The notes below the pieces were generated by a model. That model did not search any database. It was given only the letters and a program-made list of their open reading frames with translations, and was not told where the DNA came from. The translations under genes were made by a program, and so were the position numbers. Shown here piece after piece: positions 17,387-17,747 of a stretch of 46,016 nucleotides of DNA (position 1 is the first letter of the stretch; every line of letters starts with the position of its first letter). The stretch is taken from contig JAJRVS010000318.1 of the NCBI GenBank assembly GCA_024277195.1, positions 1 through 46,016 of the forward strand, in the 5' to 3' direction. The DNA comes from Verrucomicrobiota bacterium (GTDB lineage: Bacteria; Verrucomicrobiota; Verrucomicrobiia; Verrucomicrobiales; DEV007).

Positions 17387-17403
17387 CATAGCCTCGGCGA
17401 CGG

Positions 17404-17490
17404 CGGAAGGAGTGGGATTCGAACCCACGGTAGCTTGCACTACACTCGATTTCGAATCGAGCGCCTTCGACCAGACTCAGCCATCCTTCC
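17404..17490 (-). tRNA. tRNA-Ser(CGA)
   Basis: The minus strand folds as a class II tRNA of 87 nt. The acceptor GGAAGGA pairs with TCCTTCC (17405-17411). The D-arm starts TGGCTGAG, and the anticodon stem CTCGA/TCGAG encloses TTCGAAA with CGA in the middle. The long variable arm (TGTAGTGCAAGCTACC region) is typical of tRNA-Ser, and the T-arm is GTGGG-TTCGAAT-CCCAC. The discriminator is G. CCA is not encoded (the genome continues CCG). Confidence 0.96.
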
Positions 17491-17574
17491 TGTTACCTAT
17501 AAGTGTCTCAGCACTCGGGTGGCGAACCTTAGCTCAATCCATCCAAGTTTCAAGCCTACAAGTGAATCAAAATC

Positions 17575-17747
17575 GGAGTGGGATTGATTCCGTTTCGCAG
17601 CCGCGAAACTCCATCTGTGCTTCTTGCTCGCTTCGCTCGTAAACCTTCAGTCTCGCCTTGCGAGACGATGAGCACTCGAACCCACGGTAGCTTGCACTAC
17701 ACTCGATTTCGAATCGAGCGCCTTCGACCAGACTCAGCCCTCCTTCC
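17575..17747 (-). pseudogene. Second tRNA-Ser copy, split in the T-loop and decayed
   Basis: From the 5' acceptor GGAAGGA (17741-17747) through the D-arm, CGA anticodon arm, long variable arm and GTGGGTTCGA (ending 17676), the minus strand is nearly identical to the intact tRNA-Ser. It changes the normally invariant U8 to G. The T-arm's other half, ATCCCACTCC, appears only 91 bp further on (17575-17584), and the remaining acceptor strand is lost. It cannot make a functional tRNA without removal of the insert and still has a mismatched acceptor stem. Confidence 0.8.
17585..17675. mobile_element. ~91-bp hairpin-rich insert in a tRNA T-loop
   Basis: This segment separates the two halves of the duplicated tRNA-Ser T-arm precisely (ends ambiguous by one base). 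It holds two perfect 7-bp hairpins, GTTTCGC-AGCC-GCGAAAC (17592-17609) and GTCTCGC-CTT-GCGAGAC (17650-17666), and a GCTCGCTTCGCTCG run between them. It encodes no protein. The paired hairpins suggest a REP/BIME-type non-autonomous element. Confidence 0.5.

Follow-up and report, generated by a model that had tools for sequence, protein, structure and literature searches.

The second of two tRNA-Ser(CGA) genes in the stretch analysed here is split within its T-loop by 91 nt that are the core of an RtT-type tRNA-tail unit. It is probable that this split copy arose when a duplicate of the tRNA gene was fused to the RtT core by a deletion in a tandem array, and that the fusion was maintained afterwards. 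RtT RNA is Rfam family RF00391, the rttR repeats of the Escherichia coli tyrT-tyrV operon; such repeats are known from E. coli and related bacteria, with no agreed purpose.

A live tRNA-Ser(CGA) and its split copy

The window, meaning the whole stretch of 46,016 nucleotides, is contig C255 of a 422-contig, 5.49-Mb genome (G000). The features of the locus are listed below, with comparisons to G001, the second species of the genus.

17402..17490, minus strand: live tRNA-Ser(CGA), copy 1 (ARAGORN; Rfam RF00005 at 17404-17490, 56 bits)
17491..17574, minus strand: spacer from the split copy to the live tRNA, the presumed leader or promoter region of the live gene (48% identity to G001, near the shuffled level)
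17575..17584, minus strand: unit tail ATCCCACTCC, that is, the T-stem 3' strand and three acceptor bases (read from the sequence; G001 is truncated at the same point)
17585..17675, minus strand: RtT-type core (P3 domain, 91 nt) within the T-loop (R2 covariance model and alignment to units)
17592..17609, minus strand: hairpin GTTTCGC-GGCT-GCGAAAC (against G001, two compensatory changes, one G-U change and one lost pair)
17617..17620, minus strand: 3' strand GCAC of the P3 closing helix, opening the conserved motif GCACAGAT (common to units L126, L148 and L039)
17626..17638, minus strand: palindrome GAGCGAAGCGAGC, the third of the insert (read from the sequence; one loop change in G001)
17650..17666, minus strand: hairpin GTCTCGC-aag-GCGAGAC (against G001, one compensatory and one G-U change)
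17672..17675, minus strand: 5' strand GTGC of the P3 closing helix, pairing with GCAC at 17617-17620 (GCAC/GTGC in G001, two compensatory changes)
17676..17747, minus strand: tRNA-Ser(CGA) body of copy 2, from the 5' acceptor strand through the T-loop TTCGA, with T8 changed to G (71/72 against the live copy; 68/72 against copy 2 of G001)

The preliminary description had reported a duplicated tRNA-Ser(CGA) whose second copy is interrupted in the T-loop by 91 bp, and this was borne out. Copy 1, called as a live gene by both ARAGORN and Rfam, is the only intact tRNA-Ser(CGA) found in G000 and the sole intact tRNA gene of the window. The split copy lies upstream of it on the same (minus) strand and, read along that strand, consists of tRNA bases 1-72, the 91-nt insert and ATCCCACTCC, where the match to the tRNA ends; the T-loop junction is thus TTCGA / 91 nt / ATCCCACTCC. 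Positions 17676-17747 agree with bases 1-72 of the live copy at 71 of 72 positions (98.6%), the change of T8 to G being the sole difference. The mutated U8 and the lost acceptor strand had both been described correctly, with the acceptor bases past TCC and the CCA missing from copy 2. No complete cloverleaf with an acceptor stem was found for the split copy, ARAGORN and RF00005 calling the live copy only in the window, and Rfam reported nothing but tRNA at the locus, with no RtT in the window stretch. A scan of the locus for consensus promoters and terminators, spacer 17491-17574 included, found none.

The same gene pair lies beside the same lplA gene in G001, where the second copy is split at the same T-loop point by an insert of 129 nt as aligned, with CTCCCACTCC at the corresponding place after it. 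Since the same arrangement stands at the same locus in a second species, it is not an assembly accident. The acceptor strand is lost at the same base in both species, and this shared truncation point places the loss before the two separated. The split copy of G001 (L026 302-389, minus strand) was called as a tRNA by ARAGORN and Rfam (31.3 bits), a call that apparently takes in the start of the RtT core as the 3' end of the tRNA. Outside these two genomes no split tRNA-Ser(CGA) was found, either in 75 genomes of the family or in 387 of the order. Three extra pattern matches among the 387 were ordinary tRNAs with TTCGAG or TTCGAC, and in the search of the family no Ser(CGA) match came from a third genome of the genus, G002, which is 73% complete.

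The break point is base-precise, as had been claimed, with the same split in G001 and in dozens of the units described below. That the match of ATCCCACTCC at 17575-17584 might be due to chance, a possibility raised earlier, is ruled out because G001 has the same split and the break points recur in dozens of units. This 10-nt match is best read as the unit's own tail rather than as the displaced end of an interrupted tRNA.

RtT-type units at tRNA genes and identity of the insert

In other genomes, tRNA-Ser(CGA) is often followed closely by a unit of ~110-175 bp, or by several, each closing with the 3' end of that tRNA. At least 10 other tRNA genes of G000 (Asp, Asn, Gln-CTG, Val-TAC, Pro-TGG, Cys, Ser-TGA, Ser-GCT, Ser-GGA and Lys-CTT) are followed by such units, one to four each and ending in the own tail. 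Across Verrucomicrobiota, dozens of tRNA genes have units downstream. Among 122 tRNA genes with 300 bp of downstream sequence, part of which were fetched through the RtT motif so that the count speaks to linkage and not to prevalence, the own tail was repeated downstream (13/14 or better) in 54, compared with 0 of 117 upstream and 2 of 122 with swapped tails.

Most units follow one plan, with these parts in sequence: an inverted arm, GAAC-GTTCGA, hairpins, and [A]ATCC with the host tRNA's 3' end including CCA. The 5' arm pairs with the T-stem side of the tail and is followed by GAGAAC-GCA-GTTCGA or a variant of it, and the P3 closing helix of the hairpin domain covaries. The T-arm is split as TTCGA / insert / ATCC in nearly every unit, a few lacking a clean TTCGA. 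Pairing of arm to tail over 11 nt is only modestly above that with swapped tails, in part because T-stems are alike in sequence.

When 84,980 species were scanned for GATGAGAACGCAGTTCGA, 53 stretches were recovered, almost all of them belonging to Verrucomicrobiota. At 31 of these loci there is a tRNA whose own tail is repeated, and many others lie at a tRNA or at a contig end. Under a stricter model search, 8 of 115 genomes of the phylum had units, which makes for a patchy distribution. Over some units the Rfam RtT model gives an end-to-end alignment that scores under its cut-off, relatives' units reaching at most 36.9 bits against the 45 bits required, and no RtT was found at the gathering cut-off in 18 verrucomicrobial loci. 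Rfam matches to Plastid-psbl-rps4 and sX4 at unit loci overlap tRNA sequence and were ignored. In the literature searched, no report of RtT in Verrucomicrobiota was found.

Two covariance models were built from 20 units, two of them from G000 itself (Asn and Gln): R1 describes the full unit and was trained without E. coli sequences, and R2 describes the units' 3' part from GTTCGA to the tail. Searched against the window, R2 ranks the split copy first, over 17577-17681 (32.9 bits, E 2.4e-4), the next match scoring 11.7 bits. R1 matches the split copy weakly (13.7 bits), as would be expected with the 5' half of the unit absent, and neither this half (GAGAAC) nor the inverted arm was found at the locus. 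On the split copy of G001, R2 finds the correct place but weakly (13.8 bits, E 0.5). The closest matches of the insert are the Ser(CGA) units L148 and L126 (z 6.0 and 5.6), and its layout, GTGC, GCACAGAT and TCA followed by ATCCC, fits the RtT hairpin domain. The insert is therefore identified as the core of an RtT-type unit, and as far as structure shows it would work like the RtT hairpin domain. The two perfect 7-bp hairpins first described were confirmed at 17650-17666 and 17592-17609, and the palindrome at 17626-17638 was added to them. A suggested search of the genome for the 91-bp segment near tRNA genes gave a divided answer: G000 holds no second copy, and related elements do adjoin other tRNA genes.

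Several further loci bear on the units at large. At G000:C41:20721-20816 (L161, L171) a Gln(CTG)-type unit stands without a tRNA as an exact tail-to-tail copy (GCTACCA ... GGCTACCA), adjoining a repeat of which G002 has multiple copies; from this lone unit, units may move as cassettes. The overlapping contig ends G000:C118:1-377 and C233:1-479 (L172, L173) are 96-99% identical and apparently represent one tRNA-Ser(GCT) locus. They differ by ~100 bp, one carrying an RtT unit and the other lacking most of it while retaining part of the 5' arm, so loss of unit sequence occurs elsewhere too. Another tRNA-RtT fusion occurs in a member of the Spartobacteria (L106, near 2600, minus strand): here the 5' part resembles tRNA-Ala(CGC) and passes without a gap into an RtT unit, at a break point that differs from that of the split tRNA-Ser(CGA). 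G000:C68:13734-15447 (L063) holds a dense cluster of low-scoring tRNA genes, possibly phage-derived. In two relatives, tRNA-Ser(CGA) is followed by a second copy of its 3' part (L023 in G015:C101, 373-463 and 2459-2657; L011 in G018:C121, 1503-1592 and 2127-2182); these second copies start at the anticodon loop, as integrated elements leave them, and that of G015 has its own RtT unit.

Probable origin and fate of the split copy

At the ancestral locus an RtT unit would have separated two tRNA-Ser(CGA) genes arranged in tandem, as in E. coli tyrT-tyrV. GTTCGA is present in both the T-arm of a tRNA and the second hairpin of its unit, and a deletion between the two motifs would remove the 3' side of the T-arm, the acceptor strand, the CCA, the tail hairpin and the 5' arm of the unit, leaving the tRNA body, TTCGA, the RtT hairpin domain and ATCCCACTCC. 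Such a deletion would yield exactly the junction observed, with the 5' half of the unit gone. From its pairing, the tRNA T-stem GTGGG/CCCAC could now close the RtT domain. The 75 genomes of the family yielded no tandem tRNA-RtT-tRNA intermediate, which leaves the deletion route as one that we infer.

Identity between the window and G001 is 39% over the 150 nt upstream and 48% over the spacer, both near the shuffled level, and rises to 67% over the insert and 94% over the tRNA body. Both tRNA-Ser(CGA) copies within each genome share the same two lineage-specific changes in the variable arm, probably through gene conversion, which would have held the tRNA body near the live copy of the same genome and which alone could account for the conservation of that body. 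Gene conversion from the live copy cannot explain the conservation of the insert, since the live copy has none. The consensus structure of the two inserts has 22 pairs, of which six carry compensatory double changes, two G-U changes and none a break, counts that rest on two sequences; beyond the consensus, one window pair is lost, a T-A pair in hairpin 17592-17609 being A-G in G001. In 3000 random-substitution controls with the structure re-predicted, six or more double changes were rare (P=0.015), and none reached the observed consensus energy. The minimum free energy fold of the whole split copy is no better than that of shuffles (z -1.3), so it is the covariation that carries the structural case.

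These results bear on the statement of the preliminary description that the copy is dead, which holds for its role as a tRNA. It would not be simply dead, the region being conserved in two species far beyond its flanks and the insert having changed in compensatory fashion. The same points weigh against a plain decaying pseudogene, in which a tandem duplicate was fused to the downstream unit, lost all function, and resembles its counterpart in the other species through gene conversion and slow decay. This reading shares the fusion origin preferred here and differs as to whether the product is maintained. It draws on the lost acceptor strand, on the changed T8 of the window copy and on the variable-arm bases common to both copies, a sign of gene conversion; however, it leaves 91 nt that the live tRNA could not maintain at 67% identity, against 48% for the spacer and 39% for the upstream sequence, and consensus helices that changed by compensation, and we regard it as rather unlikely.

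If the fusion was instead retained, as we think probable, we would expect the split copy, by analogy with E. coli RtT, to share a transcript with the live tRNA and to be freed from it, as a structured RNA, when the tRNA is processed. A passage of PMC4986893 cites the release of RtT RNA from the tRNA transcript in E. coli. Because its fold has been preserved in two species, the fused gene may be functional as an RNA and not dead. The fuller proposal of a selected working RNA, with a tRNA-Ser body, an enlarged and structured RtT T-loop and no acceptor end, conserved in the genus, is offered tentatively and is itself rather unlikely.

It had also been suggested that the insert marks a site-specific insertion, T-loops being crossover sites for some integrases. 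On this account a small mobile element entered the T-loop of an intact duplicate, and RtT cores themselves were inserted likewise at tRNA T-arms. The identity of the break point TTCGA/ATCC in the split copy and dozens of units would fit, as would the tail-to-tail Gln-type cassette away from any tRNA at G000:C41:20721, which suggests that units can move. Against it, no empty-site allele, that is, no second, uninterrupted copy at the locus, turned up in the genomes searched, nor did a second copy of the 91 bp in the genome, and none of six neighbouring proteins has a recombinase domain. The 5' half of the RtT unit is missing here, and direct insertion would need a truncated unit. The integrated elements in tRNA-Ser(CGA) of G015 and G018, moreover, duplicate from the anticodon loop and not from the T-loop. 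Insertion by an integrase or a similar enzyme is accordingly judged improbable. It is more improbable still that the split copy is the ancestral form and that RtT units descend from tRNAs whose T-loop gained a hairpin domain and whose 5' body was later lost, for although units keep a split tRNA T-arm and their own tRNA's tail, units that carry the inverted 5' arm are spread through Verrucomicrobiota and are present in E. coli too, whereas of 387 genomes of the order only those of two species, both in one genus, had a split tRNA-Ser(CGA).

Comparison with known systems

A likeness of the insert to REP/BIME elements, proposed at first, lies in its short G+C-rich palindromes, and a 2010 study (PMC2965389) assigned enterobacterial elements similar to the rtT transcript to the BIMEs. 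REP/BIME elements are dispersed and multi-copy, whereas the insert is single-copy in G000 and part of a tRNA-linked unit, and the comparison was set aside. With tRNA genes that serve as att sites the locus shares a partial tRNA duplication beside an intact copy; here, however, it is the 5' part that is duplicated, with a 91-nt hairpin insert, and no element, integrase or att pair was found.

The closest parallel is RtT itself. The E. coli repeats, like the units of Verrucomicrobiota, have a tail equal to the 3' end of the adjacent tRNA, a T-arm split as TTCGA / insert / AATCC and a hairpin domain; R1 finds them at 20-23 bits, and in tyrT-V one RtT unit lies between two tandem tRNAs. The split copy departs from this anatomy in lacking the inverted 5' arm, the GAAC strand of P2 and the CCA tail, and in being joined to a nearly full tRNA body. 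Its tail is ATCCCACTCC only, whereas the other units of G000 end in the adjacent tRNA's 3' end with CCA, and in place of the inverted 5' arm with its GAUGAGAAC..GUUCGA hairpin the T-arm of the tRNA supplies GTTCGA. It falls below the Rfam gathering cut-off. The hairpin domain between GTTCGA and AATCC is present, as R2 and the alignment with L126 and L148 indicate. The split copy is thus best called an RtT-derived core fused to a tRNA body, the whole not being a full member of the RtT family.

RtT anatomy accordingly appears beside many different tRNA genes in another phylum than that of E. coli, with the tail and the inverted arm following the host tRNA while the core stays recognisable. So many natural variants offer tests of the role of the RtT structure and of how units acquire the end of their tRNA, and the fused tRNA-Ser(CGA) copy is a natural experiment that shows which part of a unit persists once the rest is lost.
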